This document shows positions 9,363 to 64,000 of a stretch of DNA of 64,000 nucleotides, in pieces. Under the pieces are notes generated by a model, which saw only the letters and a list, made by a program, of their open reading frames with translations, was not told the DNA's origin and searched no databases. The stretch comes from Halichondria panicea. Its lineage: Eukaryota > Porifera > Demospongiae > Suberitida > Halichondriidae. Numbering within the stretch: position 1 is the first letter of the stretch; every line of letters starts with the position of its first letter. The translations under genes and the position numbers were made by a program. The stretch is from NCBI RefSeq assembly GCF_963675165.1, contig NC_087388.1:2520800-2584799 (forward strand), in the 5' to 3' direction.

Positions 9363-10155
9363 GGAACGATGTGGCTGAAGACCCTAGATCTAAACCTCTT
9401 TGACAAACAAGTGTTGAGTGCAATAGGTGGTATGCTCTCCGACAAGCATATGCGTGCAGCCCACCAGTTATTATCGATGCAATTCCTTAAGTTTGAAGGC
9501 TGCTATAATACTCTCTTGGCCCAATTAAAGGCATTTCCACCAGTTTCCAATAATCAAGGCCCAGGTAAGACAACGTTTATGTAATTATGATAATTTTACT
9601 TGTACACGTGCAGCTGTGCAAATCTTCTTTGTTGAAGAACGACAGCACTGGATTGCCACTTCTCTGTTTAAGGGTGAACTGTATTTGTACGACAGCTGCT
9701 TCAATGGAACGCTTTCCCCAAGTACTGAGCTCCAGATAGCACAAGTGTATAGCCCATTAATTCAATGCAATGGGCTGTTGATTTCTGTGGTGGCTCTCCA
9801 GCAGCAAGAGGGTGCTAACAACTGCGGACTATTTAGCATTGCTGCTGCATATCACGCTGCTATGAACGATAATGTGGGTTCTCTAGTGTTTGATGAGGCC
9901 AAAATGAGAGCACATCTCATTAAGTGCTTTGAGAAGGGCAAACTCTCACGGTTCCCTCGCACAAAGAAAGCGATGCCAAAAAGACCAACACCACAAACCA
10001 TTGCCATTACAATATACTGCATGTGCAAGAGACCGGACTCTTTTGAGGATATGGTCATGTGTGACAAATGTAGTGAGTGGTATCACTATTGCTGTGCCAA
10101 AATTCGCAAAGAACCAGTAGGTAATTGGTTTTGTTCTGGTTGCATCACTTTATGA
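9363..10155 (+). CDS. Ginger C-terminal exons: Ulp1/C48-like cysteine protease domain plus PHD finger
   Basis: Exons 6 (about 9363-9564) and 7 (9614-10155) are open. The first reads TMWLKTLDLNLFDKQVLSAI. The second has the C48-type layout: His in ERQHWIATSLF, Asp in LYLYDSCFNG, and Gln...Cys in LQQQEGANNCGLFSIAAA. The last 45 residues form a C4HC3 PHD finger (YCMCKRPDSFEDMVMCDKCS, then EWYHYC and WFCSGC). These domains could process SUMO-like conjugates and bind histone tails; in Ginger1 their role is inferred, not known to me. The stop is at 10153-10155. This part has no visible frameshift, unlike the integrase half. Confidence 0.8.
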
Positions 10156-23525: not shown

Positions 23526-24735
23526 ATGGAACAGTTACAGACAGATTTGGAGACACTTCGACAAGAGTTGGCTGCTGCTAAGGACGAATCCAAGAAGCAG
23601 TTGGAAGAGATAGAGCAGCTTCGAGCTGAAATGACGGAGACGACCCGTACCCATCGCATTCGAGGCGACCCGGAACCATGAAGAAGAAATCCGTGCGCTG
23701 CTCCAAGGACAGCTAGAGGAATCTGAGACAAGGGCTGAGCTAAAGCATTTGAGGGCTCTGGAGCAACTTAGAGTTGAGCATCAAGAGGCGATCCACCGAG
23801 AACAGAATGAAGTGGACAGAGAGCGACGACAAGCTCAAGAGAGGGAACAAACCCTGACTGATGCGTTTGAATTAGAGAAGTATAATCTACAAGGACAATT
23901 GGAAGCAGTTACTGCTGAACTACGATCACTTCAGGAAGAAGTTGACTCGGAGGATGACCCGTCTATTGATGATGAGGCGGAGGTTAGACATACCACACCG
24001 CTAGAGAGGGCAGAACCCTCAAGTACCCCCCATATGGAGAGAGGTACCGACCCTATCCGAAGAACTGAAGATCGAGGAACTGAAAGAGGAACTGAAAGAA
24101 CTCGAGGAACTGAAAGAAGAACTGAAGACCGAGGAACTGAAGACCGAGGGACTGAAGGAAGCACTGATCGAGGAACTGAAAGAACTACCGATCGAAGAAC
24201 TGAAACTGATACACGAAGAACAGAGCCACCAGGAGGAGAGGAACGACTGCTGCCCCCTGCTGGAAGAGAGTCTCCTAGTGAGTCATTACTTGTAGCGACA
24301 ATGACAAGGCTTTTGGAAGCTCACACAGAGGCAATTGCTGCCCAAACACAAGCTACAGCTGCCCAGCACCTACCACCCCTAAAGGCCTTTACCGGTGAAG
24401 GGAAACAAATGGAAGAAGATGGATTCGAGCGTTGGATTGAACAGTTTGAAGAACGAGCTAAAGTTGCCGGATGGAGCACTGAGCAAAAGTTACATCAGAT
24501 TAAATTGTTATTGGAGAAAACGGCTCTGAGAGTTCTCCGTGCTCTCCCAGACACGGACCAGAGTCAGTACCAGAAGGTAGTTGATGCCTTACGAGCCCGC
24601 TTCAAGGCTGTCGATATTGAAGAACTTAGAGGCATGGAGTTCCATCATAAAGTCCAGAGAGATGAGTCGATAGATAGGATTGGAGCTTCAAGCACTAGGG
24701 CGCAAAGCGTTCCCATCAATTCAAGGCCGAGAGTT
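23526..24735 (+). pseudogene. gag: coiled coil, charged repeats and capsid-like region (frame broken)
   Basis: It begins MEQLQTDLETLRQELAAAKD, a heptad-rich coiled coil, then shifts frame near 23665 into NHEEEIRALLQGQLEES. A low-complexity stretch rich in RGTE/DRGTE lies at 24050-24220. The capsid-like part has PLKAFTGEGKQMEEDGFERW, LLLEKTALRVLRALP and VVDALRARFK. A second break near 24680 is needed to pass from ESIDRIG into LELQALGRKAFP, which continues gag in the pol frame. Because both breaks fall inside domains, I read them as indels in this copy or sequence errors, not programmed frameshifting. Confidence 0.75.
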
Positions 24736-27700
24736 TGAACGTTTGCTGAAAGGACGCTTCTTTCAAGCTTTGCATGTTAAATGGCAAAGGAGACTGGGTG
24801 CACCAAAGACAAGCGAGACTTTCCAAGAGCTCTATGATAGGGCACGAGTGATAGAACGACATGAACGACAATATGCAGAATCTGCTGCGTCCCGTGGAGA
24901 TACCCCCAAGAAGAATACTTTCCGACCAAGAGAGCAAGGCAAGATGGCCACGCCACAGTCTGAAAGTACACGCCGAGAAGAGAGGAAGACTCGAGAACCC
25001 GTGTGCTATCACTGCCAGCGCCCTGGACACTACAAGAGTGATTGCCCCTTTCGTGGAAATCAGCCGGAAGCACCTGGGAGAAACACTAACCCTTACAGAA
25101 GCGGGAGGTCAAGTCAGTTAAACCGTCACAGTGGAAATCACAGTGGAAATCACAGTGGAAATAACTCTAACCCCAGTACATCCCGTAATGCACTACTGGA
25201 GACCAAACCAAGTGAGGAGACACATTTGAACAGTTTGTCAATAGAACAGTTAGAAGCCCTGATAGCTGTAAAGCGACTGGGTGACGAATGTGATAATCTA
25301 CCCAGAGACGAAGCTACGATGAATACCGTGACCGTCAACCAAGAACAAAGCCCCAAGACAGTCGGTCCTACAGTGTATGTGCCTGTGAACGTATGTGGAG
25401 TGCCTGTAGAAGCCATGTTGGACACTGGTGCTCAGTCTACCATAATCTCTCGAGAGTTGCTACACGAAATTGTACGTCACCTCCGAACCGAAGACCAGCC
25501 ACTACCTGAACTAAAGACACCCTCTGCGAGACTCTATGGCAAGGATGGAGTGGAAGGCGGCAGAGAGATAGTGATCACTGCCCAGATTGATGTAGACATT
25601 GCCGTGGATGGTGAGTCAGTTTGTGTACCTGTATTTGTACAACCAGGAAGTTCCCAACCCCTATTGTTAGGCATGAATGCTATACCGGCCTTAAGCTTTT
25701 CGTTGTTGAGACCTAATGGACAATCCCTCATAGCAAGAAGTAACCCTGACCCGGAAATATCTATTGTGCGGTTAGTGAAAGGTGTTATAGTACCCAGTTT
25801 GAAAGGCAGTTTTGTGAGAGTCAAAATCGACAATGTACATGCCCTACCTGGAGGTTCTGTTTTGTTTGAACCAAGTAATGGTCAGCTTGAGCCTAAGGGT
25901 TTGTATTCCCAAGAGTCCCTTATTACTATTGACGATGATGGTTGTATGCTAGTCCCAATGGTGAATGTGCATGGTGCCTCGACTCAACTTTTGGAGGGCA
26001 TGGAGATAGGGTGTGTACAACCTTTGGACGTTGTGCCTGTTTTGGAACCCGGAGATGTTTGTTGTACTAATACTACATGTGCATCTGTAGACACCGTTGT
26101 TAAGACCTCTGAACGTATGAACCAAATTAAGACTGTCTTAGGTATTGATTCCATGATCCTTTCGGAAGGACAGCAAATTCAGCTTACCCAATTGCTTTAT
26201 GATTACTCTGATGTATTTGCCCTTAATGGTGCCGAGTTAGGTTGCACCAATGTAGTGCGCCATTGCATTGATACCGGAGATAGCCACCCAGTAAAGCAAC
26301 AACCCTATCGCACCCCATTTATCCACCGAGAAACGATCAGTCGAATGGTAGAAGAGATGGAGGAGCAAGGTGTAGTGCAACCCTCTATGAGCCCATGGGC
26401 CAGCCCCGTTGTAATAGTTCCCAAGAAGGACGGTAGCAAGAGGTTTTGTGTCGACTATCGCCGATTGAATGCTGTCACTAGACGAGATGTATACCCTCTA
26501 CCCCGGATTGATGATATTTTGGACGCAGCAGGAGGTGCCAAGTATTTCTCTTCGTTAGACCTCGCCTCAGGATATTGGCAAGTAGAGTTGGACCAAGAGG
26601 CACGCGAGAAGTCTGCATTCACGACTCATCGAGGATTGTTTGAATTCACAAGAATGCCATTTGGACTTTGTAATGCCCCAGCGACCTTTCAGCGACTAAT
26701 GCAGGCCATACTGGCTGGACTGGAAGGAACGAGCTATTTTGTCTATTTGGATGACATCCTTGTAGTGTCCGATACATTCGAGGATCACCTCAAGCATCTC
26801 TCGGAAGTGTTTATGAGGTTGAGAAGAGCTGGTTTACGTCTTAAACCAAAGAAATGTATCCTTCTTCGCAAAGAAGTCCCTTATCTAGGGCATGTACTGT
26901 CTGCTGCTGGAGTCCGACCAGATCCTGCCAAGATCGACACTGTTAAAAACTATCCAACCCCCACTGACGTGACGAAGATACGACAATTCCTTGGCCTTGC
27001 TAGTTATTACAGAAGATTTATCTCTGGATTCGCACGCATAGCCCACCCTCTCCATCGCTTGACCAGAAAAGACGTCCCCTACGAGTGGAGTCCAGACTGT
27101 GAGACGGCCTTCGAACGCTTGAAGGAGTGCTTAGTGACAGCACCTATTCTCTCCTACCCAGAGTGTGGAGCAGGCAAGCAGTTTGTGTTGGAGACAGACG
27201 CCAGCGGACTTGGCCTTGGTGCTGTGTTGAGCCAAGAGAAAGAAGGACAGCTCCATCCCATCGCATATGCCTCCAGAACGTTAGACATCCACGAGTGCAA
27301 CTACGGTATATCCGAATTGGAAACACTTGGTCTTGTCTGGGCTGTACGACACTACCGCCCATATGTCCTTGGACATCATACTGTTGTGTACACTGACCAT
27401 GCAGCATGTACTTCGTTGTTAAACAACCCCCGACCCACAGGGAAGTTGGCTCGCTGGGCACTCACCATTCAAGAGATGGATTTAGAGATAAAGCACCGGT
27501 CAGGAAAAAGCAATGCCAATGCTGATGCCCTTTCGCGGAACTCGATCATCAATGCTGTGGAGACGTTTGCTATGACCAATGGAGAGGATGAAGCCATCCC
27601 ACGACCCGATGTTGAACAGATGACCAAACTCAAGGAAGCTCAACGGAGCGACTCAGAATTACTAGACTTGTGCCGATACCTTGAAGCTGATGTCCTGCCA

Positions 27701-29128
27701 ACGGATGAAAAAAGAGCTAAACGAATTGTCTTCGAAAGTGATCATTTTGAGTTGATACATGGTGTTCTACACTATGAACCCCCGACGTCCATAGGCCGCC
27801 TGTGTGTTGTAGTCCCGAGAAGTGATCGTGACAATCTTTTACAAGAAGGCCATGCCAGTTGTTTTGCCGGACATTTCTCTGCCAAGAAGGTGTATGATCG
27901 CCTGCGAAGGCACTATTGGTGGAAGGGTATGCGAGCAGACGTGTACCACTTTTGTCGGAAATGTTTAGTCTGTGCCAGTCGGAAGGGTCCTGGTAGAGCT
28001 GTTCGACCACCCCTTGTACCTATTCCTGTTGGAGCTCCATTCCACCGTGTTGGAGTTGACGTGCTGCAGTTGCCAGTTACTCACAAGGGCAATCGTTACG
28101 TTGTTTGTTTTGTGGACTATCTCACCAAGTGGGTTGAAGCATTCCCCATGGCTGACCAAAAGGCCGATACTATAGCCAGAATTTTGGTTGAGCAAGTCGT
28201 TTGCAGACACGGCGTCCCCGAACAATTACTTTCAGACAGAGGAACCAACTTCCTTTCCGAGTTGATCAAAGGAGTGTGTGATGTACTTGGAATCAAAAAG
28301 ATAAACACCTCAGGTTATCACCCGCAAACCGATGGTCTAGTTGAAAAATTCAATTCGACACTTGTTAGTATGATCGCTAAATGCTGTGATACTAAGAAAC
28401 GTGACTGGGACGATCATCTACCATACCTTCTGTATGCGTATCGAACAATGATGCAAGAGTCCACCCAGGAATCACCGTTCTATCTTTTGTATGGCCGAGA
28501 TGCACGAATACCTACGGAGACGGGATTGAGTATGCCCACACCCGTGTATGAGCTGGATGCAGAAGATTATCGGACTGAACTTGTTTTGAAACTTTCCAAT
28601 GCGTGGAGTATTGCTAAAGAGAAGATTGAGAGAGCACAAGATCATCAGAAATTGCAGTATGACAAGCACACCCGGAGAAGTGAAATACAAGTAGGCGATC
28701 GTGTGATGGTATTCATGCCAAGCAAAGTGCAGGGTAAAGATAGGAAGCTCGCACGACCATACCACGGCCCCTACAGAGTGTTAAATGTAACGCCTACGAA
28801 TGCAGAAGTAGCCTTGATCGACAGGCCACGTAACCCTTCCATATTTGTGTCTCTGACCCGAGTTCGCAGATGTTATGATGACATGGATGACCACTCGTGG
28901 ACAGGTAGCGATAAAAAGTCCCAGAAGAAGGCCCAACAAGAAGTACCCCCTGATCAAGAAGTGCCATTACCACCCCCAACAGTAGAGAATTTGGACGAGG
29001 ATTTAAACGAGAATTTGGACGAGAACACCCCCTCGGAACCCCCTGAGCCGTCACCTTTGAAGGAGTCAATAAGCCAGAATACCCGAGCAAGGACCCGCGG
29101 TAGGAAGGAAAACCCGGAAGTTAAGTAA
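24680..29128 (+). CDS. Ty3/gypsy gag end plus pol polyprotein (1482-codon open frame)
   Basis: The frame starts inside the end of gag. It has a CCHC zinc knuckle CYHCQRPGHYKSDC (about residue 108), an aspartic protease motif MLDTGAQST (about 246), and a reverse transcriptase with VYLDDILVVS (about 688). RNase H follows (ETDASGLGLGAVLSQ, about 838). The integrase has a zinc-binding HASCFAGHF...CRKCLVC (about 1055-1100) and the acidic triad Asp in VGVDVLQ (about 1125), Asp in LLSDRGTNF (about 1184) and Glu in GLVEKFNSTL (about 1221). A C-terminal tail is rich in Pro and Glu. No stop or frameshift interrupts it, so the enzymes may be functional. Confidence 0.9.
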   Translation: MELQALGRKAFPSIQGREFERLLKGRFFQALHVKWQRRLGAPKTSETFQELYDRARVIERHERQYAESAASRGDTPKKNTFRPREQGKMATPQSESTRREERKTREPVCYHCQRPGHYKSDCPFRGNQPEAPGRNTNPYRSGRSSQLNRHSGNHSGNHSGNNSNPSTSRNALLETKPSEETHLNSLSIEQLEALIAVKRLGDECDNLPRDEATMNTVTVNQEQSPKTVGPTVYVPVNVCGVPVEAMLDTGAQSTIISRELLHEIVRHLRTEDQPLPELKTPSARLYGKDGVEGGREIVITAQIDVDIAVDGESVCVPVFVQPGSSQPLLLGMNAIPALSFSLLRPNGQSLIARSNPDPEISIVRLVKGVIVPSLKGSFVRVKIDNVHALPGGSVLFEPSNGQLEPKGLYSQESLITIDDDGCMLVPMVNVHGASTQLLEGMEIGCVQPLDVVPVLEPGDVCCTNTTCASVDTVVKTSERMNQIKTVLGIDSMILSEGQQIQLTQLLYDYSDVFALNGAELGCTNVVRHCIDTGDSHPVKQQPYRTPFIHRETISRMVEEMEEQGVVQPSMSPWASPVVIVPKKDGSKRFCVDYRRLNAVTRRDVYPLPRIDDILDAAGGAKYFSSLDLASGYWQVELDQEAREKSAFTTHRGLFEFTRMPFGLCNAPATFQRLMQAILAGLEGTSYFVYLDDILVVSDTFEDHLKHLSEVFMRLRRAGLRLKPKKCILLRKEVPYLGHVLSAAGVRPDPAKIDTVKNYPTPTDVTKIRQFLGLASYYRRFISGFARIAHPLHRLTRKDVPYEWSPDCETAFERLKECLVTAPILSYPECGAGKQFVLETDASGLGLGAVLSQEKEGQLHPIAYASRTLDIHECNYGISELETLGLVWAVRHYRPYVLGHHTVVYTDHAACTSLLNNPRPTGKLARWALTIQEMDLEIKHRSGKSNANADALSRNSIINAVETFAMTNGEDEAIPRPDVEQMTKLKEAQRSDSELLDLCRYLEADVLPTDEKRAKRIVFESDHFELIHGVLHYEPPTSIGRLCVVVPRSDRDNLLQEGHASCFAGHFSAKKVYDRLRRHYWWKGMRADVYHFCRKCLVCASRKGPGRAVRPPLVPIPVGAPFHRVGVDVLQLPVTHKGNRYVVCFVDYLTKWVEAFPMADQKADTIARILVEQVVCRHGVPEQLLSDRGTNFLSELIKGVCDVLGIKKINTSGYHPQTDGLVEKFNSTLVSMIAKCCDTKKRDWDDHLPYLLYAYRTMMQESTQESPFYLLYGRDARIPTETGLSMPTPVYELDAEDYRTELVLKLSNAWSIAKEKIERAQDHQKLQYDKHTRRSEIQVGDRVMVFMPSKVQGKDRKLARPYHGPYRVLNVTPTNAEVALIDRPRNPSIFVSLTRVRRCYDDMDDHSWTGSDKKSQKKAQQEVPPDQEVPLPPPTVENLDEDLNENLDENTPSEPPEPSPLKESISQNTRARTRGRKENPEVK

Positions 29129-29614: not shown

Positions 29615-31001
29615 TTATATAGAATATTCCTGCATGATCATCACTTGAGGATGAGGTGCGAGGTGCGCTGATGTTGTTAGTCGACACCTGTGAGCAAGGA
29701 AATGTGGTGGCAGCCATTGGAGGAGGCAGAGATGGCTCTGTGAATTGGCTTCTGGATACAGGCACAATGTCCAAACGAGGCTGTAGGATGTCTGAAATTG
29801 CTGCTCTAAGGAAGTTCGCTTGTAGCCTCTGATTCCTTCGATACTGCGATGGCCTGTACGCTCCATTACGAGTTGTTCGTCAACACCACTTGAGTACAAC
29901 CTGGTTGCAGCTGTGGCTCTGAGTGAATGGTTCGTTTTAAAACCTTGTATTCCTGCTTTCACATGTTCTTCAGTATGTTCTTCAAGGTGTTATGTCCCAA
30001 AGGTGCTCGGGAAAACCAGCAATCTTGTTTAGGTTTTGTCAGAGGAGAGAGGTAGAACGCATTGCTCGGGCGATCATGAGGACACAAGCTATTGTATCTC
30101 TTAAACAGCTCAACAAAGCATCTCTGAGGATTTTCGGGATTTGAATAGTGAACCACTACTTTGGGCTTGATTTTGCGTCCTTTCAATCCTCCGGGACGAT
30201 TCTTCGATATGTCTTCTCTGTATCTGAGGAATGATCGTTCATTTCGAGGCTCACAAAGTTCAATTTGGCAAGGATTATGGCGAAGTTGTCTGTGCTCACC
30301 TCCACTGCGCAATGCAAAGTAGAGTCGAACACCATTGTGTTCAAAAGAGCGTCCGGGCTGTGGTCTCCTAAGAGTTTTTTCTCCCACAGCAACTCTTCTT
30401 CTTAAGGGAAATTGGTTCAGCCTGCTTACGTACAGAGCCAACACCAGCAGATTGAAGTCGCTTCATTTGCAAACTCATGGTCCTTGAAGAAATCGATATC
30501 TGGTCTTCCGCAGTTCTGACGTAAATGACGCATAATTCCAGAAACTATATGATGGAGTGAGTTTGGAGCATACTTTGCACCTTTCTTTGTTCTGATTTCC
30601 ATCAAAAAGCGACTCAGCCAGTACTGAAGACCTTGCTTGTCCAACTCTGCCAGTGGTGGAATTTCAACATTTTGTTGCCTGTTGCTTGCCCAGTCTTTCA
30701 CACAGTAAGAGGAGTCTTCTCGTGTCTTTTTGGGTACAGACTCAACTCTGGCTTTAGCTACATCCGTATCAGTCACTGGAATGGTGTACCTTCTTGAACT
30801 TGGCTGCGCAGGCACAGTTTCAGGTTTCTGGTCTTGTTTGTGGCCACTCGTACTCAGTAGGGCTTCAACTGCGTTTTCTAAACTCCGCCTTGGGTCAATA
30901 GGGTCAGTTTCACTATCAGCACGAGAGCTAGTAGAAAGCGTAGCACTGGAACAGCATCCCCAGCCATGCCCAAGTGTTTCCAAGACAAAATGGCAGCTCA
31001 C
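29615..31001 (-). pseudogene. Crypton-type tyrosine recombinase gene
   Basis: It begins near 31001 with a disordered region, then an N-terminal core-binding part (ELDKQGLQYWLSRFLMEIRT, then YAPNSLHHIVSGIMRHLR). The catalytic part has Arg in YFALRSGGEHRQLRH, then HYSNPENPQRCFVELF, RAPLGHNTLKNILK, the H-x-x-R box KTNHSLRATAATRLYSSG, His in ERTGHRSIEG, and the Tyr in IRGYKRTS. This is the R-H-R-H-Y set of Crypton recombinases and the host proteins derived from them (ZMYM, QRICH1 and KCTD1 families). Three short deletions or shifts, at about 30455, 30400 and 30340, break the frame, so this copy is probably dead. I see no inverted repeats, as expected for Cryptons. Confidence 0.75.
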
Positions 31002-31071
31002 AGAAGCCCAGACGGTACTCGTTTAGCTAGCTAGCAGTTTATTTTGTGGTTGCTACGCTATTCTAAATCAG

Positions 31072-48215: not shown

Positions 48216-48255
48216 TTCACTTGTACCCACACACTTTTCAAAGTTGTTTTGAGCA

Positions 48256-49227
48256 ATGCCTAACCCTTACTCACTGGATTTGCGCTGGAGGATAGTATTC
48301 CTCAATATATCTGAGAATATTAGTGTGGCAGATATTTCAAGACTCCTGTGTGTAAGTGAGAGTAGTATCAGGAGATATTTGAGTGTATTTCAGCAGACTG
48401 GAGATGTGAGACCAGTAGATCACCATCATGGACCCCATTCAATTCTTGGTGACTTTGAACATATAATTATTTTAAGACTTATACAAGAAAGACCTAGCAT
48501 TTATCTTGAAGAAATAAGGGGGAAACTTCTGGACTTATTTGGCAGTACTGTGAGTACTTCAACGATATGGAGAACGTTGCACCATAAGATGGGCTGCAGT
48601 CGTCAGGTTGTTCGCTACATAGCTTCACAGCAAAGTGAACTTGCTCGGGCACAGTTTATGGCAGAAATTAGTGTTTACGATCCATCAATGTTGATTTGGA
48701 TAGATGAAAGTGGATGCGATCGTCGTGACAGCAAAAGAAAATATGGATACAGCTTCAGAGGGATTACACCAAGAGATCACAGGCTGTTTATAAGAGGAAA
48801 ACGCTACTCTACCATACCACTTCTTTCAACTGAAGGGATTCATGATGTTTACATATCAGAAGGCAGTACTGATGGAGATAAGTTTGTAAACTTTCTCAGA
48901 AACTGTTTACTTCCAATCCTTAATCCCTTTAACTGCGTCAACCCTCTGTCTGTGGTCATTATGGACAATGCATCAATACCTCATATACAAGAAGTCCAAG
49001 ATATGATTGAAAACCAAGGCAATGCAAAGCTGATTTTTCTTCCACCTTATTCACCCGATTTAAACCCATCGGAGGAAGTGTTTAGTCAAGTCAAGGACAT
49101 TATTAAGGAAAACTACCAAATTTTTGAGTCTACCAGTGCTCCTAGAGCACTATTAAGTACAGCATTTGCAATGGTAACGAAGCAATACTGTCTCTCTTAT
49201 ATCAAACACTCAGGATACATTCAATAA
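48256..49227 (+). CDS. IS630/Tc1-mariner-like transposase, intact, 323 aa
   Basis: One uninterrupted exon from ATG 48256 to TAA 49227. The N-terminus is a helix-turn-helix region (MPNPYSLDLRWRIVFLNISE, ISVADISRLLCVSESSIRRY), as in paired-like transposase DNA-binding domains. The DDE core has Asp in MLIWIDESGCDRRD (about residue 154), Asp in VVIMDNASIPH (about 237), and Glu in SPDLNPSEEVFSQVK. The last is 34 residues after the second Asp, so the triad is DD34E. Length is normal for the superfamily. It would bind the inverted ends and cut and paste at TA. The promoter is not obvious; the ATG lies 90 bp from the left terminus. Best candidate in the window for an active enzyme. Confidence 0.92.
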   Translation: MPNPYSLDLRWRIVFLNISENISVADISRLLCVSESSIRRYLSVFQQTGDVRPVDHHHGPHSILGDFEHIIILRLIQERPSIYLEEIRGKLLDLFGSTVSTSTIWRTLHHKMGCSRQVVRYIASQQSELARAQFMAEISVYDPSMLIWIDESGCDRRDSKRKYGYSFRGITPRDHRLFIRGKRYSTIPLLSTEGIHDVYISEGSTDGDKFVNFLRNCLLPILNPFNCVNPLSVVIMDNASIPHIQEVQDMIENQGNAKLIFLPPYSPDLNPSEEVFSQVKDIIKENYQIFESTSAPRALLSTAFAMVTKQYCLSYIKHSGYIQ

Positions 49228-52251: not shown

Positions 52252-53300
52252 ATGGGGTCACTAGTGAACAAGCTGTATCAATTGAATTGTGAACCTACCA
52301 GAGAACAAGCGTCACCAGCTTGTGAGCAGAAAACTACAAGTGAGAATCGAGGAATTCGTTCAACAAGAAAGCTACAGCTAGTTCATAGCAACGTATATGG
52401 GCCTGTACAAACTGAATCGATCAGTGGCCAAAGGTACTTTGTGACGTTTATCGATGACGCTTCTCAGTGTTGTGCGGTGTACTTTCTGAAACGAAAGTCA
52501 GAGGTTTTTGAGAAATTCAAGGAATTTGAAGCACTTGTCACAAACGAATGTGGGCAAAACATTGTAACTCTACACACCGATGTATTTCAACAGTATTTAT
52601 CAGCAAAAGGAATACGGCATGAGCTAACCACCCCTTACCCAAATGGGGTGGCGCAGAGAACAAACAAGACTCTAATGGAATCAGCTAGAGCCTCATGCAA
52701 GTCTGTCAAACAGCTACTGGGCAGAGGCAGTAGCGACTGCAGCGTATCTGAAGAACAGATCATCACCATCAGGAAATACAACACCGTACCAGAAGTGGTT
52801 TGAGAGGAAACCTGATGTTAGTCACCTGCGAGTCTTTGGTTGTATTGCATATGCTCACATACTGAATTGTGACAGACAAAAGAAAGTGAAGAAGTTGCGG
52901 TTTGTTGGATACTGCAAGAATTCGAAAGGATACCGGTTGTTTGATGAAGAGACCCGAAAGGGAAGAGATGTAATATTCGACGAAACGGTTTTTGTCTTCA
53001 ACAAACCTGTAACTGAACAGAAAAATACGACATTTGATGTTGGAGAGGAGACACATCAACCACAGGATGACACTGAACAGCCACAAGATGAGCCACAGGA
53101 TGATACTCAACAATCAGAAGAACGACGTCGTTCTCAGAGAGCACGTGGACCCCCTGTTAGGTTTGGAGTAGACGAGTTTGCCAACACAACAGAAGCTGAT
53201 CATATGGCATATGTGAGTCAGATCAAGGAACCAGACGCAAGAAAGAGATTACCTGATCCGAGCAGACGACCACCCGTTCCCAAGAGGGGTTGCAACAGAT
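52252..53300 (+). pseudogene. Ty1/copia integrase remnant
   Basis: It begins in the zinc-region end (TREQASPACEQKTTSENRG). The core follows: Asp-like in LVHSNVYGPVQTESISGQRY (the usual DVCGP is NVYGP here), FVTFIDDASQCCAVYFLKRK, then TLHTD...LSAKGIRHELTTPYPNG and Glu position replaced in VAQRTNKTLMESARA. After a shift near 52780 come FERKPDVSHLRVFGCIAYAH, KLRFVGYCKNSKGYRLFDEE and RRRSQRARGPPVRFG, the linker to the polymerase. Loss of the first Asp and of the usual Glu (ERMN type) argues for inactivity. Confidence 0.8.
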
Positions 53301-53619
53301 GTGAGTCACCACAGAGTCCCTTTCCATATGTGCGATGCAAGTATGCTCAGAAGTCAAAGGGACGTCGTCCGCCAATTTGCACGTTTGAGGACCACTATCG
53401 AAACCAGTGTTTAAGATTTGAGTACAATCTACCGATAGTGTTGAAACTAATAGTAGATTGTGAGACTAACGTCATTGTAATTACCTAATTAGATAGATCT
53501 AGAACATTCCATGTAAGTAATCTATAGTAATCTTAGTCAGTAATTTTTGTAAACACATGTGCTGTTCTATCCTAAAAAAGATACTTGATTAAACGAAGTT
53601 GATATAAGGACCAGATTTC

Positions 53620-54349: not shown

Positions 54350-55740
54350 ACTACGTAATTGGTGTGTACAGGATAATTCTAAGGCAGTCACTGTGGACTC
54401 GGTTTCCATACCAGCCTCTTCTGGCAAATACTCGGCCTCAAATGTTGATCTGTAATAGTAATAAGGAATTAGTATTTGCTTTGCTCTAAATTCCTAGTCT
54501 CTTAGCACACTATTCCATTTGATATCAAGGTAGTGATATCAAGCTGGGGTACCTCCTCCTAATCTCCTACACAAGATCATGTACATACCTGTAAAATTTT
54601 ATCACTTACTAAAACTACACCACTAGACGCGACGACTCAGAACCACAAGAAGGTACATAAAAGTAGAAATAAACACACAAGTCAAATTTTTTTATTAGAA
54701 TACCCGCACCATGTTCGTGGTTACCAGCACAACCCAGCAACTCCAGTTCCATTGATCACTGCATACACTGCCTGTGTGTGATTCAGCTTCCTCCAGACTT
54801 TCTAAGAGGATCTTGTGGCCCCCATCCTGCCAACGATGAGAAAAGACATCAACTGTATATACAGGTTGCTGAATACACTGAGAGTGTGGGTAGATTGAGT
54901 ATTTGGCTAGGAAGGAGACGAGGACAGTGATACATGACAAGAGGGAAATAATCGTACTGTGGTTGTTCCGAAGTTCAACCTGTCCACCCAATCACTTGGA
55001 ACTGCCTCCCCACACTCATTCTAAAGTATGGATTTGTATTACTGTTATATCTCTATTTCCATCGCTGTTGGAGGCACAAAAAGTAGAAGTGTTGCTGCCA
55101 TGTGTTCAGGGCTAGTAAAAATAAGTGTGTTTGTGTACTGTACTGTACGTGTGTGTGCATAGAGTTTGAATTAGCCGCCATTTGCAGCAGCATTCACTTC
55201 CGGCCGGGCCCTGCCCCTTTTATACCGTGGGCATAGCGCTCTAGCAACGAGTGCGTAAACGCGCAGTTCATAGATTGCGTATCAATTTTATGCGCAAGCT
55301 TCTCGTTTAACTGACAACTTAAAATGCTTACCATATCCTCTGTATCAACTTCTACTTCAGGAGTTGTTGAAGTTGTTGAATCGTCTAAAAAGTAATTGTC
55401 AAAAAACTTATTGAAGTAGCTCTATTGCATCCATACAATACAGATCTGAAGGTTCTACGCAACTAATGGCTGGGCCTGGGATGAAGATGAAGATTGGAAG
55501 ATTGGCTTGAGTCAGAGAAATGGAAGTCCAAAATCAAATTCTTTCACCTTTGTATTGCAAACTTTCACACTGCCAAACACGTTTTTTTCTGTCAAAGTAG
55601 TGTTTATAAAACTGTGTTTTAGAAAGTTGTTGATCGCAGTGTCCACATAAAATCTTCTCGCTGATTCTGACTCTGGATCTCTCACTGAAAGATCGATGCT
55701 CATATGAAGAGGACATAGACGCCATACTAAAATTGTCACT
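54350..55740 (-). pseudogene. N-terminal exons of an unidentified zinc-finger transposon-type gene
   Basis: At 55725 the minus strand starts MASMSSSYEHRSFSERSRVR then ILCGHCDQQLSKTQFYKHYF, a Cys-x2-Cys...His-x-His-like finger seen at the N-terminus of some invertebrate CACTA-like and other transposases. An exon near 55385-55330 reads DDSTTSTTPEVEVDTEDM before a GT donor. A further exon at 54440-54370 reads STFEAEYLPEEAGMETESTV. Between them, FSHRWQDGGHKILLESLEEA (54870-54790) is open. Splice joints are guesses, so linkage into one gene is uncertain. Confidence 0.35.
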
Positions 55741-55744
55741 GTAT

Positions 55745-56300
55745 TACTCTGTACATCTGGCTCCTGTTAGAATAGTTTTCAGCGGCAGCGGCACATGAAT
55801 GAGAGACCAGGAGAACTTTGGAGGCCAGGGGAACTCTTCAGATGATGAAAGCAACGGTGATGATGGGCGGTTTGAAAGATCTCGAAGGTATCAAACATTG
55901 CAGAACCAATCAAATATTTTTGCAATGCAGCAACATATATTGCAAAAGCAAAGTTCATTTGAACAGCAGCATAAAGATTTGGAAAAAAAATAGAAAATAA
56001 GATGGTAGTGAATAAGATGGTAGTGCAGAGTCTGGAAAGCGTAAAAGGGTTGTCACTCACTCGGGACCTTTCTGTAAGTGTATAATTTTCTTGATCACCT
56101 ATTCCAAATTCAGAAAAAAGTTGTGATGATTCATTTTGCATTGGAAAATAAATTTAAGGCTGACGAAAATGTATGCTCTGGCTTTATTCTATAGTCTTAT
56201 TCTTGCTTTTTTTCTAAAGGTGTCCGTTACAGCTCCGTTCAGGCTACTGTTTTAGGGAGTGGTGAGTGGTGAGTGTAAAAATTATATTATAATACTCATA
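55745..56300. other. No recognised gene
   Basis: A plus-strand stretch (55799-55990) encodes a Gln-rich possible coiled coil (IFAMQQHILQKQSSFEQQHK). It lacks support as a gene. Confidence 0.35.
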
Positions 56301-56489
56301 TATATATTTTTTGAGCTCTGATTTTTGTCCTTCGTATGGTGAGCGACGGAAGTGATGAGGAAGAGGAAGATGAAGATGATTGTGTGATTGTGAGGAAGAG
56401 GGAAGAGGGTGTGCTGTAGTCAGTGTCTCTCCTAATAAGCCCAACATCGTCAGAGGTGATGACTTGGGCTTTATCACCGATAGTGCGCA

Positions 56490-56720
56490 CGACTCACCAC
56501 TGATATACCTCAGGACTTCCTTTTTAAGTAGCACTAGTTTTGAACACATTTGTAAGCGTTACACTGTGCCCCTTGTCCAAAAGGAAGTACAAGCCAATAC
56601 AGCGTGTGCTGTGATCCGTCAATTTTTATCAAACTGGAAAGCACATGCTCTATACTTCCAGCCACAATGGGATGCTCTAAAACCAGCCCCCCCTTCCACT
56701 GGCTTGTGGTTTTGAAGGAA
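56490..56720 (+). repeat. Companion segment S, inverted copy next to RAG1-like copy B
   Basis: It matches the reverse complement of about 57830-58150 with several short deletions (tacctcaggact, aaggaagtacaagcc..., ccacaatgggatgctc, ttccactgg.ttgtggttt). Orientation relative to the RAG1-like exons is opposite to that in copies A and C. Confidence 0.65.
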
Positions 56721-56819
56721 TGTTTATCTTGCGTTTTTTACTGGAAGTTATAACTGACACTTTGTGGCATGCATGTACTATAATAATACATGGCTACGAA
56801 CATGGCTACGATAAAAATA

Positions 56820-57790
56820 ATGAGGTGGACGTCTGCATGCAATGGTTGATGGTGCAACATGTGCAACATGTACAAAGTGCTGTCTCATCATGCCAATGAT
56901 GAAATATGCAACTCAGCTCTCACCTCTCACCCTCCACTCGTCCAGCCTGTGACCCATAGAGATTAGTATTAATAAATAATTATACATTACCTAGACAACC
57001 AATTTCCTCCTCATCGCAGTTGTGGAAAAGAGCGAACACCACAGAATGCATGATAGCAGGACCTGCTGCCAAGTGATGTCCAGCGTAAGCATGTTATAAT
57101 TAATATATAATATTGTACCTGGAGGACGTGGTTTCCCACAAACGTTCCTCGGCTTCGAAGGCAATGTCTAGGGCTTTACGAATGGACCGTCCTCTCGCTT
57201 AAACAACAAAGTTGTTAGTGCTGATCCGTCCTAAAGATATCAGTGTCCTAAAGATATAATTATGTATTGCGTTCCAATTAACTTTCTTTGCTTTCACTTC
57301 TAGCTCTGAGCGGAGCTCTGGATCATCCTCCTCCTCAGAGCAGTTATGTGAATTTTGTATGTGAAAGGTATGTATAACTAAGTTGTTAGAAGCACCTGAC
57401 AGCCCATATATATAGCCCATATATATTGCACAGGAACTCCTCTGTACACGTATATATATTGTATTTAACGTCGTACCTCGTGTGAAGGTTGTCCACCTGA
57501 TCCTGAAATAGGTTAGTGATGTTATCAGGAGCATTGGGGTGAAAACTCATTTTGAAGCTCCCTCCTCCCTTAATCTTTACCATCCCTCCCTTCGTGCCAG
57601 ATTAGTCGGTGCACTCTAAATAGATCGTGATTGTCGGGTAGTAGGATTTACTATCACTCTTATAATGTTCTTGCATGGGTGGCAAAAGCAGGGTGAATGC
57701 CTATTTTAACCGCGCAAGAACTTTTCTTCTGTTTAAAGAAAGATCCACAAACCGCTCATCACCGCTGTTTCACAACAATGAAAATTCACC
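56820..57790 (-). pseudogene. RAG1-like gene, internally contracted copy B
   Basis: In reverse, short pieces of nearly every region of the gene at 58.3-61.8 kb occur in the same order. They are a CGSF/HP.F start, a SAPTN-L piece of the D1 exon, KGGGSFKMSF, APDNIT, FQDQVDNLH, FLC.IYGLSGAS, EDDPELRSELE, REDGPFVK, VFALFHNCDE and MMRQHFVHVAP. Between them blocks of 20-300 bases are missing. The acidic catalytic residues are mostly gone. It lies in direct tandem with copy C. It cannot encode an enzyme. Confidence 0.7.
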
Positions 57791-58150
57791 ACTTAGTTTA
57801 TCAGGATGTAGTACATGATTATGACAAGATAATACATTCCTCCAAACCACAAACCAGTGGAAGTGGGGGCTGGTTTTGGAGCATCCCATTGTGGAAGGGG
57901 ATTCCTAAGTATGTGAAAAATGTGACTGTGCTGGAAGTATAGTCCAGCACAGAGCATGTGCTTTCCATAGATACCAGTTTGATAAAAATTGACAGATCAC
58001 TGCACAAGCTGTGTTGGCTTGTACAAGTACATCATTTTGGACAAGGGGTACAGTGCCTCCAGCAAAGAAGCGCTTCTGTCACCATCTGTGTTTCCTAAAA
58101 CTAGTGAGCAGCAGTTACTTGAAAAGAAAGTCCTGAGGTATGTTTTGATA
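57780..58150 (+). repeat. Companion segment S beyond the 3' end of RAG1-like copy C
   Basis: Conserved with 680-1005 (same relative orientation) and 56490-56720. It starts ATG-AAA-ATT (MKIHHLVYQDVVHDYDKIIH). It also has a possible exon end DKGYSASSKEALLSP..EQQLLEKKVLR at a gtatgt donor near 58139. If coding, it is convergent with the RAG1-like gene. No Kelch or PHD pattern is visible. Confidence 0.5.
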
Positions 58151-58319
58151 CACAGGCTGGAATAGGCAACGTTCTTTACAGGAAGTTATAACTATTTCAA
58201 ATGACACTTTATAGCATGTATAATTATAATACATGACTAGTCTGATATGTATGTACTAAGTACGTACATACATATGTACGTACATATATATGTATAAAAA
58301 ATAATCATAATTTGGTCTT

Positions 58320-61300
58320 TCTCCTCTTTTGAGGGGGACGTCTGCATGCAATGGTTGATGGTGCAACGTGTACGAAGTGCTGTCTCATCATGCATCTTAA
58401 TCTGTCTACACCATTCGGGATGATGCCTTTATATTGTTGAAATAGGCATGAATGGACTCAGCTCCTTGCTCTCCCATCAATCCCAATCCCACTCGCCACT
58501 CGTTAAGCCAGTCAACCACATGCGTTTCAAGCATGTGCACTTTGGGAATCACACTTGCATCGGGAAATTGCTCCCGATAAAAGCTCATGAAGGTAGAGAT
58601 GTGTGTGCCTGTGGACAAAGTTAGTCAATATACATTTACAAAAGTAATTATAGATTACCTAGAAGAGCAATTTCTTTGTCAGTTATGCTGTATGGCTTGT
58701 TATACAATTCATCGCAGTTGTGGAATAGAGCAAACACCACAGAATATTTCCTGTGTATCCTCTCAGCTCGCTGCATGATAGCAGGACGATAATGTCCTGC
58801 TGTAAACACCGCATTGCAGAGAGTCACCGTGTTCTCAGGCTGTAGAGAGAGCGCCGCATAAGCTGTAAGTATAATTATTGTACAGTTGTGATTATTATTA
58901 TACCTTATTATTATTGTGATTATTATTATACCTTATTATTATACCTTGAGGTGGACGTGGTTTCCCACAAACGTTCCTCCATAATAGGCCTGTCGTCGCA
59001 CATTGAAGCCATCTAGTGCGATATCTAGGGCTTTTACAAAGGGACCGTCCTCTCGCTTGAACAGCTTTGTTGTTAATGCATTTGCTTTGGTCCATTCAGT
59101 GTCCTAAAGACAATTATGTATTGCTGACATAGTGTTCCAATTAACACTCACCAGTTTATTTACTTTCGTAGCGATTTCTTCTAACTCTGAGCGGAGGGCT
59201 TGCAGCTCCTCATCCTCACCAAACAGTACGAATATGGCTATTAGATCATTGAGTTGATCGATCTGTTCATTTGCCCTATAATTATGTTGTTCACAAATTA
59301 TCTCTATAGCATGTAAGGATAGTAACCTGTCTATCTCATCTTTGAGGATCCTCGCTCTAGTAACGTCGCCCACATAGTTGGAGTAACTGGGGCCCCCCTT
59401 GTCGCAACTATCCTCCTCATCTCGAACAGCCACGTCCAGCACATGGCACTCATCTTCTAGCAACTGGAAGAGGCGATAGAATATGCCTAGAGTTATGTGG
59501 AGTCCTGGTGGGCAAATCAACATCATTTTAGGAATAAAGTCATGGGTGAGTTAATACAGTGTAGCAGTCTTACTTGATTCAAAGGAATACCCTTAAAGAA
59601 TGGTTCTCTGATGCAGTTGTTGAAATTTTTCACATTTTTCGGTTTCCCTCCAGCTGCAAGAAATCTCTGGTGATCTTGTACGATACTATCAGTACTTCTG
59701 CTCGGAATATTGGCGGGAGGGTTCTTCAGTTGGTCCGATGTCACCAAGCACCACAAGCAGTTATGTCGACCTATTCAATTTTTTGTGTGAAAGGTATGTA
59801 TAACTAAGTTGTTAGTTTTACCTGAAGCACCTGACAGCCCAAACATATAGCACAAGAACTCATAGTCGCCACTTAGGAAGACCCGGATTGTGTTTCCTCT
59901 GTACAGGTATACATTATATTGTGTTTAACCCATTGTACATGTTGTTGTACCTCCATGTTGTACCTCCATGTTCTCTTGTGAAGGTTGTCCACCTGATCCT
60001 GAAATCGCTCCAGTGCAATTTTGAGGTTTGTTATGTTATCAGGCGCCTCAAACACGCAAAAAGCACAGGTGTTGACAGGGGAGTTGGGGTGATCAACATT
60101 GCATATTTGAAAACTCATCTTGAAGCTCCCTCCTCCCTTGTCTCCACACAGCTTTACCCAGATTTCATTCTCGGGTATCCTCCCTTCGTGCCAGGTTAGT
60201 CGGTGCACTCTAAATTGAATTACATCATGAGAAGTATAAAATTATACACAGTATCTCTATGCACCTTCTCTCTGCATCATCATTAAAGTTGAGCATACTT
60301 TCAATCTTATCCCAGAGGTTTGGGGTGCTGCACATGGGAACGTTTTTAATCTCAACTGTGTGTCTTCCATGACAGGGAATGTGAATGGAACAAGCTCAGA
60401 CTTAAGGTTATCAACCCCTGCCAGTGACTCTGCCTCTGCTCTCATTTTCTTCTCTCATTTTCTTCTCAGAAGCAATTTTGATGTTAGGTCCCAGCATTCT
60501 TCAAAGAAAAAAGAAATAAGGTAAAAGTTGTCATGCATTAATTACATTGTACCTTCTCATGATCCTTAGTCTGTTATAAGGTATCATCAGGACTGACTGC
60601 ATCCCCAGGCTTGCTGTAACAGAAAACTCCACTTGAAAGCACCCTGTTGTGTTTCTGAGCTCCTCGACCAGTCTCTCTCGGTCTTCCTTGGTCTTCCTTC
60701 CCAATCACCTTGACTTCGTTACACATCTGTGCTACCTCCTCTCCACCACTCACTCGCTTTCTTGTAATGAGGAGCTCACTGCTGCGGCTCTCAGGGTGGT
60801 CTGGCTCGCACTCCCACTAGAAACTCTTGGTGAGCTCACTTGCACCATTGTGCGAGGCTGTAAATAATGTTATGTGCGGCATAATAATAATAATAATAAT
60901 AATTTTGTTCCTACCTGTCCCCCTGTCTTTACTACTAGAGTTTGAGAATGGTGCATACTGCGCTTAATGAAACTTGACTGCAGTTTCTCCTCGAGAGGCG
61001 TCAAAGACATTTCTTGTGGTCTGATCAAGAGGTCGGAAGGGCGGAGTGGGACAGGCTTAAAGTGTGTGCACTCACACTTGCTGTCAAAGTGAGCCTTGTG
61101 ATACTTTAGCAATCCCTGCTTTGTGCACGCACAACATGTTACCTCAATGCTCCCTATTGCCTTCAGTGTGACTTCAGGTGGAGAGGTAATCAAATTGAGA
61201 TCGTATAGATGGTCTAAATGGCAACAGGGACATGATGGGGTCCGGGAAATTTCGAGACACTTGCACAAACAATCGGCACATACAAGATTATTGCACTCTT

Positions 61301-61795
61301 TCAGCTCGATTGGCTTGTTGACAATCTCCAAACAGATAGGGCAGTCAAATATATCGTGTTGAGTAATCACATTGTTTTGCTGGCAGAAGGCCGGAGGTGC
61401 AATGGACTTAACGTGCGTTATTGCTGACTGAAAAGAATTTTTCCCTGGTCTACCAGGATTATTCTGTTTCTTTGGCCTTCCACCAACACTGTGAGTGCTA
61501 GCTCCGGTGCACACTACACAATTCTGCTCACTGTGAACATACCATGTTGAAATTGTTATTGTAGGGTAGTATGGGGTACCACTACTTGCTTTCCTTTTAG
61601 TATGGTATATAATGTTGTTGCACGAATGGCAAAAACTTGGAGGGTGAATGTCTTCTAAATCTGTGTCAATCTCTATTTTGAACACATTCAGGAGATCAGC
61701 CTTATGGCCCGAGCAAGAAATCTTACGATTCTGGGAGCCTTTTTTCTTTTTGAAGAAAGACCCACAAACCCGGCAGTGCTTTGAGAGCTCAACTC
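58320..61795 (-). pseudogene. RAG1-like transposase gene, 11 exons (copy C), N-terminal and core regions present
   Basis: Approximate exons are 61795-60915, 60857-60553, 60498-60265, 60209-59964, 59898-59822, 59770-59574, 59526-59337, 59275-59152, 59103-58947, 58862-58659 and 58608-58320. Exon 1 holds HCRVCGSFF, IEIDTDLEDIHPPSFCHSC, WYVHSEQNCVVC, a RING (CPICLE...CADCLCKCLE...CPCC) and a C2H2 finger, the RAG1 N-terminal order. The core has Asp in KLCGDKGGGSFKM, Asp in FLSGDYEFL, zinc Cys pair CLWC, zinc His pair HMLETH, and Glu in GEQGAES. From the second Asp to the first Cys is 19 residues, as from D708 to C727 in mouse RAG1. The His pair is spaced as H937/H942. Frameshifts occur in exons 2, 3 (a 13-bp duplication at 60440-60465) and 11, and the exon 7 acceptor is unclear. 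So this copy is probably not functional. Confidence 0.8.
60915..61795 (-). CDS. RAG1-like N-terminal exon: zinc-binding dimerisation region, RING and C2H2 finger
   Basis: This exon is open for its full length after a stop near 61800. From the start: HCRVCGSFFKKKKGSQ, then VFKIEIDTDLEDIHPPSFC aligning with the VFRI..D....IHP..FCH block of RAG1. WYVHSEQNCVVC follows, then a basic Gly/Pro linker (GGRPKKQNNPGRPGK), HVKSIAPPAFC, and a C3HC4 RING with FDCPICLEIVNKPIEL, CNNLVCADCLCKCLE and SCPCC. The end is VTCCACTKQGLLKYHKAHFD (C2H2) and the donor VVKTGGQ/gtagg. In RAG1 this region is an E3 ligase and dimerisation module; activity here is inference. It is the best evidence for the family assignment. 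Confidence 0.85.
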
Positions 61796-61849
61796 AATGC
61801 TCTTCACTCATTGTACGATCGTATAGTCCTGAAGGTTTAATGTAATAGC

Positions 61850-62390
61850 TGAATGTATTATGACTTACACTACACTTATGATATGTACGTATGTATGTAC
61901 TGTAGTCAAGTTATTATCATTGCAACCTTATTATCATTGCCCTTATTATCATTGCAACCAATTTTTTGTCAAGTTTCAGACCTTATTATATTGTTACAAA
62001 GAACGTTGCCTATTACCTGTTATTTTGAAAACACAAGTATGGCCCTTCCTCTTGAATTTGCTAGATGGTAGGTATGTAGCTTTGAAATCATCCACTTATC
62101 ACCTTGTAGTTGTACATCAATTAGTGCTTTGAAGTATCCAGGTGCGCACACGCAGCCTAATACAAGTTGCTATGCGCATTTGGTATCATTCAGTAGATCA
62201 GTAGGTGCACATGGCATATATTCATTAACAATTCATGTGACTTCAATGAATAACAAATAAGTTGCCATGGGTATAAATATTGCATAAAAACATGAATAAT
62301 AAATTTGAAACCACACCCAATTTTCAATATTTCGTTGAGTTCCAGGTTGTTCTAATTATGAACTAAGTGGCAGTCTTGAAACAGCGGTGT
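61850..62390. repeat. Dispersed repeat X, contracted second copy at 63700-63965
   Basis: Shared ordered blocks: acgcagcctaatacaag, aggtgcacatg, catgtgacttcaatga, aagttgccatgggta, tttgaaaccacacccaat, ttgttctaattatgaacta. The second copy lacks about 160 bases in several short deletions. A stretch (aacgttgccta) also matches the area near 58170, linking it to the RAG1-like unit. Confidence 0.65.
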
Positions 62391-62424
62391 CATCTAGATG
62401 ATTATACTTACGACTAAACTTTAT

Positions 62425-62545
62425 GATATGTACAGCTGTTTGCATAGACCTTGCAAAATACTAAATCAGCACTGCATTACCACAAAACCACAACACAATG
62501 TTGCTATGCAAACAACATGTAGTCTTAAGCAGAGATTGGGGAGAA
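62425..62545. repeat. Inverted repeat Y, partner at 63590-63690
   Basis: tacagctgtttgcatagacc, ttgcaaaatac, gcattaccacaaaaccac and aatgttgctatgcaaacaa recur in reverse at 63590-63690. Confidence 0.7.
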
Positions 62546-62559
62546 GTGGATATGAAACT

Positions 62560-63085
62560 AGATCACGTGAGCTTATGCGCTTAATGTAAAACAGAGTAAA
62601 AAGTTTAGGCACTCCGCGTTGCTATAAAAATGGCGGTTTAATTTGCAAAACAGGCCCATGGGAAGCTGGATGACTCACTTGAAGAATTATGATCATAATT
62701 ATAATTGACTAGCCACAGATTGTTTTAAGGTGGCAATAAAATCCAGAACGCCAGATTTCCTGGTTTATTGGCTATACTAGCCTTTGTGGGACTGTAGCAG
62801 AAAGCAAGTTGGTTTTCATAAGATGTTTAGTGATGAGTTTTAATGTTAGCTATGTATTCTATGTACTTGTTGGTGGTATGAAACTCACATACAAATTATG
62901 GTGAGGATCGGAAATGGAGAATGGAGAATGGGCTGGGACTAGCTTGCATATACCAGCAGATAATTATGATATACATGTAGCTACTAACCGTCCACTGAAT
63001 GTATGGAAAGCAGTGTGAAGGCTGAAGAAACTGTTAGTACGAAGTACTGCAAAGGACCTCAAACACTGACATAATATGTCAGTGT
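62560..63085. other. No recognisable gene
   Basis: AT-rich. It ends with the small palindrome aacactgacataatatgtcagtgttt (63062-63087). Confidence 0.5.
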
Positions 63086-63086
63086 T

Positions 63087-63493
63087 TATCAACACCTTGT
63101 GCTGAGACTTGCATGCTGAACGAAAAATTGTTACGCTAAGGAACCTGCAGATAGTTGACTCGCTCACTGTGGTCACATTTCTCGTATAAGCAGCAGGCTT
63201 AAACTATCTTTTGTGATAATATCACAAAAGATAGTTTAAGTTTAAGCAGTAAAGGTACTGCAAAGAAACAGGATATACCACAGTGAGCGAGTCAACTGTG
63301 GTCACATTTCTCGTATAAGCAGCAGGCTTAAACTATCTTTTGTGATAATATCACAAAAGATAGTTTAAGTTTAAGCAGTAAAGGTACTGCAAAGAAACAG
63401 GATATACCACAGTGAGCGAGTCAACTATCTGCAGGTTCCTTAGCGTAACAATTTTTTCGTTCAGCATGCAAGTCTCAGCACAAGGTGTTGATA
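63087..63493. repeat. Large foldback: 86-bp inverted arms enclosing two 129-bp palindrome-bearing units
   Basis: Arms 63087-63172 and 63408-63493 are inverted copies with almost no mismatch. Between them a 129-bp unit is repeated in tandem (from 63169 and from 63298). Each unit contains a perfect 20-bp-arm hairpin (cttaaactatcttttgtgat/aat/inverse) at 63198-63240 and 63327-63369. No coding capacity. Confidence 0.9.
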
Positions 63494-64000
63494 GAGACCA
63501 TTCTCCACTTCAATCCTCCCCGGTTCCATAGTCTAGTTCTAGAAGCCATCATTGCTCATAACTATACTACATGCATGTACAATTTATACTATTTGTTTGC
63601 ATAGCAACATTGCATGACATGTATGGTGGTTTTGTGGTAATGCAGTGAAGATTTGTATTTTGCAAGGTCTATGCAAACAGCTGTACGTACATATTGTTGT
63701 AATCAATTTTTTTTTAGACCTTGTTACAAAAAACGTTGCTGTCACTTCCTCTTGAAGTCCTAGATTACATCAGTGTGTAATATACGCGCAGCCTAATACA
63801 AGATCATTCAGAGGTGCACATGACATTCATTAACATTTCATGTGACTTCAATGATAAGTTGCCATGGGTAATAAAGACATGAAATAATAATTTGAAACCA
63901 CACCCAATTGCAAAATTTTGTTGAGTTCAATGTTGTTCTAATTATGAACTAAGTGACACAGCTAGTATTAGTATTGGTGATGAGCGGATGTCATCGTGGA
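63494..64000. other. Repeat-derived sequence to window end
   Basis: It consists of the inverted Y copy (63590-63690) and the contracted X copy (63700-63965). The last bases include ggtgatgagcgg, also seen near 57750 in reverse. Confidence 0.5.

Follow-up and report, generated by a model that had tools for sequence, protein, structure and literature searches.

A decayed Chapaev-type transposon with a RAG1-like N-terminal region in the sponge Halichondria panicea

Family assignment and structure of the element

We analysed a RAG1-like gene on the minus strand of a 64,000-nucleotide stretch of the Halichondria panicea genome (NC_087388.1, positions 2,520,800 to 2,584,799; this whole stretch is hereafter called the window). 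The gene almost certainly belongs to the Chapaev superfamily (CMC group) of cut-and-paste DNA transposons and is the decayed remnant of an autonomous element. The single multi-exon transposase of this element has, in order from the N-terminus, a Chapa zinc domain, a RING, another zinc finger and an RNase H core of the RAG1/Transib fold. The frame of exon 4 matches PF06918 (DUF1280) at 2.2e-15, with 57.3 bits vs. a curated cut-off of 25, and DUF1280 has been equated with Chapaev (PMC3985635). Exon 1 matches PF12560 (RAG1_imp_bd) at 6.4e-12, above its curated cut-off; the RING of the same exon scores under the Pfam RING cut-offs.

Chapaev elements are described as recognizable by CAC...GTG ends, by a target-site duplication (TSD) of 3–4 bp and by a DDE core accompanied by C(2)C, LH and H(4)H motifs (PMC4079192). 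In our material terminal inverted repeats (TIRs) with 5′-CAC and GTG-3′ ends are present in six copies, the TSD is 4 bp long in six of six copies and in one short derivative, and the window gene has the D-D-E residues together with the C(2)C, LH and H(4)H motifs. It also has a Chapa domain and RING ahead of the core, which is a hallmark of two Chapaev subgroups. Kapitonov and Koonin (2015; PMC4411706) described Chapaev transposases with a Chapa domain and a RING and inferred an ancient fusion, and a 2025 paper (PMC12730594) places these lineages in a CMCT clade and reports C(2)C and H(3-4)H motifs common with RAG1. Two other assignments were rejected: Chapaev3 needs a 3-bp TWA duplication, while the duplications here are 4 bp and varied in sequence; Transib needs 5 bp, vs. 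4 bp in 6/6 copies.

A sequence-only reading of the window had given the gene an extent of 58320–61795, but the unit is larger, 57760–62389 with its TIRs and TSD. Pairwise alignment of the window with 13 further genome stretches revealed common end points, and these, together with TIRs and TSD, delimit a whole element of 4630 bp on the minus strand. By end-point comparison, the 5′ TIR CACCGCTGTTTCA lies at 62377–62389 (minus strand) and the 3′ TIR, again CACCGCTGTTTCA, at 57760–57772 (plus strand). The flanking TSD, TCAT on the plus strand, is found as a left copy at 57756–57759 and a right copy at 62390–62393 (strandless features). CACCGCTGTTTCA forms the inverted repeats in four copies, namely the window element, L039, L041 and L042, and CACAGGTGTTTC those at both ends of two, L043 and L044. 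Read on the plus strand, the remaining duplications are ATGT (L039), GTTA (L041), ACAA (L042), GCTG (L043) and ATGG (L044), so that each copy with both ends read has a 4-bp TSD. In eight further loci scanned for termini, at most one end was seen in the DNA covered. A terminal pattern of 15 fixed bases occurred 29 times in the 131-Mb genome (131,455,214 bases searched, 39 contigs), and its reversed control 0 times.

The coding stretch covers 58308–61811 on the minus strand, with a possible ATG at 61811 and a coding end at about 58308, and is divided into 11 exons, all on that strand. Exon 1 (60915–61811) carries the Chapa zinc domain (CxxC/His/Cys), the RING and then the further zinc finger, as judged by PF12560, the family profile on RAG1 residues 100–378 and alignment; its sixth codon is TGA. 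Exon 2 (60553–60857) has a stop or frame break at 60752, and exon 3 (60265–60498) an internal frame change near 60.40–60.45 kb. Exon 4 (59964–60209), the DUF1280 exon, contains the first Asp in GDKGGG (60145), exon 5 (59822–59898) the second Asp in GDYEFL (59870) and exon 6 (59574–59770) the C(2)C zinc ligands in CLWC (59759). The LH motif, LHITLG, is in exon 7 (59327–59510, start approximate). Exon 8 (59152–59275) is followed by exon 9 (58945–59103, with FVGNH), exon 10 (58659–58839) and exon 11 (58308–58608), where H(4)H is found as HMLETH (58537) and the Glu as part of GEQGAES (58474), with a second frame change near 58.42 kb. Most junctions are GT-AG. The donor of exon 4 is ambiguous by some 13 bases (two candidate sites), and the exon 6/7 junction has no standard in-frame acceptor, the splice site upstream of exon 7 being non-standard. 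Given the TGA at the sixth codon, the stop or frame break at 60752 and the two frame changes, the window copy is a pseudogene and cannot make a protein.

The N-terminal region and the core compared with RAG1

The sequence-only reading had described an 11-exon minus-strand gene with a RAG1-type order of motifs, and all the features it named were found, with uncertainty at the exon 4 donor and the exon 6/7 junction. Its spacings also held when recounted after splicing: 19 residues from the second Asp to the first Cys, 5 between the two His and 21 from the second His to Glu, vs. 19, 5 and 20 in mouse RAG1, for which D600, D708, C727, C730, H937, H942 and E962 were confirmed by counting on the PDB sequence.

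N-terminal profiles were built from seven and then from 20 homologs and searched against PDB. The seven-homolog profile matched full-length mouse RAG1 over residues 100–378 at 1.3e-21, and its positions 6–102 matched a 137-residue RAG1 fragment that lies ahead of the RING (21wb) at 3.3e-11, with the best non-RAG RING at 2.9e-10. For the 20-homolog profile the corresponding values were 1.8e-24, 4e-12 and 6.7e-9. In the alignment of the pre-RING part, CR(V/I)C, an HP...C..C stretch, a W and a second Cys pair are common with RAG1, with single ligands missing in some rows. The match to the fragment ahead of the RING and the shared residues thus indicate, at the level of sequence, that the likeness to RAG1 is specific. 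The RAG1-type N-terminal module that had been claimed is present, and generic RING similarity, named beforehand as the finding that would overturn it, was not borne out. PF12560 was detected at 14 places of the genome, all of which overlap Chapaev pieces by eye. A separate observation concerns the DUF1280 protein P0006, in which residues 15–88, the position of the Chapa domain, match zf-AD (PF07776) at 3.7e-5, under its cut-off; this hints at a possible relationship between ZAD domains and the N-terminal zinc domain of Chapa/RAG1 type.

For the core, a fold test was made on the homolog P0013 from the sponge Ephydatia muelleri. The predicted structure has the RAG1/Transib core fold and its best superposition is on RAG1, from which we conclude, on the strength of this model, that the core of the transposase has that fold. 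The best superposition and the N-terminal match at 1.3e-21 would also suit a true RAG1L/RAG2L (ProtoRAG-type) transposon, directly related to the vertebrate RAG locus. We consider this highly improbable, since PF12940 (RAG1 core) matched neither the exon frames of the window gene at E≤10 nor the seven homologs at E≤1, and the RAG1 chains among the best 60 of 179 PDB rows show one matched stretch each, on the N-terminal side. Moreover, hhalign against the mouse RAG1 core returned a probability of 0.3 %, although the power of this test is low as it used only one RAG1 sequence, and the TSD is 4 bp. A search with PF03089 (RAG2) found nothing in the one genome searched, but gave no signal in control genomes either. 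Since Transib and RAG transposition is stated to give a 5-bp duplication (PMC8355894) and significant sequence similarity between the cores was not found in these searches, we place the element in Chapaev as a separate, distant branch. The earlier assignment to the RAG1/Transib superfamily of transposases was therefore right as to the fold of the core, as tested on a homolog, but too narrow as to the family.

By analogy with RAG1 and Transib, the core would bind CAC-type ends and cut by means of its D-D-E triad; insertion would be staggered by 4 bp. As in RAG1, the N-terminal zinc module may function in regulation, import or ubiquitin ligation.

Copies, mobility and insertion context

When the flanks of L043 were joined with one TSD copy removed, 246 candidate matches were obtained. 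All of the 40 that were scored run as uninterrupted DNA across the junction; 35 extend over the full 296 bases, 11 of these at 100 %. L043 thus landed in another, highly repeated sequence. Two elements of a second lineage, L043 (2360–6752, on C17) and L044 (3399–7817, on C1), are nearly identical on different chromosomes, with 10 substitutions and 44 gap columns in 4428 columns, which points to recent movement of the element. The exon frames of L043 look open by eye, its splice sites lying outside this reading, and the same genome has some relatives that look intact.

The window element itself is inserted into a decayed relative of greater age, and parts of that relative flank it on either side. 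One is an internally deleted part at 56505–57753 on the minus strand, with 56505–56731 inverted, and the other a matching 5′ piece at 63808–63958, also on the minus strand. These observations bear on whether the gene, with its RAG1-like architecture, has been domesticated by the host and has lost its mobility. Such an origin would be in line with a single multi-exon gene and with the annotation of its relatives, which are listed merely as hypothetical or uncharacterized proteins; yet there are several copies with exact ends and TSDs, L043 has empty sites, and the window copy is a nested insertion with a broken reading frame. For the window copy, the stops and the nesting contradict domestication, which we regard as extremely improbable.

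Several points weigh against the assignment of the window gene to a mobile Chapaev element with a RAG-fold core. No empty site was found for L041, the joined flanks of which matched only its own two flanks, and the search covered L043 and L041, with the other four copies, the window's included, outside it. The fold test was made on P0013 instead of the window protein; the P0013 N-terminus has no Chapa domain, and its model has a mean predicted local distance difference test score of 70.8. Whole-length Foldseek superpositions are loose at ranks 1–8, with template modelling scores of 0.23–0.35 by query and 0.35–0.48 by target and root-mean-square deviations of 15–22 Å. RAG1_imp_bd was detected in five of the first seven homologs at E≤1, in three of them above its cut-off. 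The name Chapaev rests on published hallmarks. Finally, the element is not known to have biochemical activity.

Other features of the window were recorded as well. Most of the block at 55133–64000 is present as an inverted-orientation segmental duplicate at L046 (C12:2453–2463 kb) with 95.9–96.9 % identity; the duplicate does not have about 2 kb (60643–62635) that contains the 5′ half of the element. At 63082–63498 two exact 129-bp tandem units of palindromes are framed by inverted repeats of 46–51 bp, which looks like another small transposable element or a hairpin-rich insertion. A retrotransposon at 24674–29128 (plus strand) has a 1484-residue open frame with aspartyl protease, reverse transcriptase, RNase H and integrase, and we take it to be of Gypsy type by its domain order. 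At 29959–31022 (minus strand) DUF3504 (1.1e-20) adjoins a QRICH1-type domain (8e-10), presumably the make-up of Crypton-like tyrosine recombinases. The 324-residue open frame at 48253–49227 (plus strand) is of Tc1/mariner type, with DDE_3 at 3.7e-26 and HTH domains. An open frame at 9529–10155 (plus strand) ends in a PHD finger (1.3e-7), preceded by a stretch that we assume from its motif to be an Ulp1-type protease, without a database match. A retroviral polymerase SH3-like domain (2.4e-21) at 52676–53488 (plus strand) presumably marks Copia-like remains.

Relatives, depth of the fusion and known systems

The joined protein matches seven proteins: three from E. muelleri (one by its Em identifier only), among them the best database match, one from Hydra, two from Ptychodera and one without a named source. 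A profile search scoring 7999 candidates gave at least 73 matches. Each of them carries an E. muelleri name or an Em identifier, and several that rank lower look like mixed gene models. In a core tree of 18 rows the deep branching is not settled and host copies are not separated from those of Ephydatia, Hydra and Ptychodera; L043 and L044 form a clearly separate second lineage in the same genome.

According to the sequence-only reading, a sponge copy would place the N-terminal fusion very deep in animals. This is plausible in view of the similar layout in Ephydatia, Hydra and Ptychodera, but the unsettled core tree and the horizontal movement of Chapaev elements between animal phyla (PMC4079192) stand against a firm dating. 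If the same Chapaev element had reached the sponge horizontally, its presence would be uninformative on the depth of the fusion. The known transfers and the unseparated host copies agree with such an arrival, whereas the second lineage in the same genome and the large Ephydatia families suggest long residence; we judge it possible, though at less than even chances. Returning to the Chapaev element as such, the N-terminal fusion is not new, having already been described for other Chapaevs (PMC4411706). As far as the literature was searched, additions to the known architecture are the sponge members, the fold-level comparison and a derivative with the Chapa part only.

Compared with those described Chapaevs, the element has the same Chapa zinc domain, RING, D-D-E core and CAC ends, and a TSD within the stated 3–4 bp; it differs in its new host and divergent copies, the comparison being one of descriptions and not of Repbase sequences. 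The E. muelleri DUF1280 proteins (P0001, P0013 and others) have a similar domain order and motifs and also come from a sponge, but are only about 30 % identical to the window protein and are annotated as hypothetical or by identifier only. RAG1 and RAG1L (ProtoRAG) share with the element the order of the N-terminal zinc region, the core fold, the order of D-D-E and C-C-H-H residues and nearly equal local spacings. They differ in that no significant core sequence similarity was found, in the TSD (4 bp here vs. 5 bp), in the distance from the first to the second Asp (70 in P0013 vs. 108 in RAG1) and in that from the second Cys to the first His (305 vs. 207). RAG1L elements have been reported in cnidarians (PMC7204232) and a RAGL in a pelagophyte alga (PMC9435367). 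Transib, represented by HzTransib, is described in PMC8355894 and PMC4411706 as being without the RAG1 N-terminal region and has 5-bp duplications, whereas the element studied here has that region and duplicates 4 bp.

A further comparison concerns L060 (G000:C1:16024450-16025431), an element of 982 bp that has both TIRs and is flanked by the TSD AACC. Over its first 960 bp it matches the start of the L041 element at 97.9 % identity, and its final 23 bp are the same as the 3′ end of that element, which shows that it arose by internal deletion. The 141 residues of its open frame span the Chapa domain and end ahead of the RING. The N-RAG-TP element of Aplysia, described as consisting wholly of RAG1 N-terminal-like sequence, has been regarded as an independent source from which that region came (PMC8355894). 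By this description it is an N-terminal-only element like L060, and L060 shows a simpler route to such an element, by which N-RAG-TP may have arisen. We tentatively propose, as a scenario less likely than not, that the complete RAG1 layout, with Chapa zinc domain, RING, zinc finger and RAG-fold core, already formed a single mobile unit when sponges split from other animals. No later fusion of Transib with N-RAG-TP would then be needed, and N-RAG-TP-like elements would be internally deleted Chapaevs that kept only the N-terminal exon.
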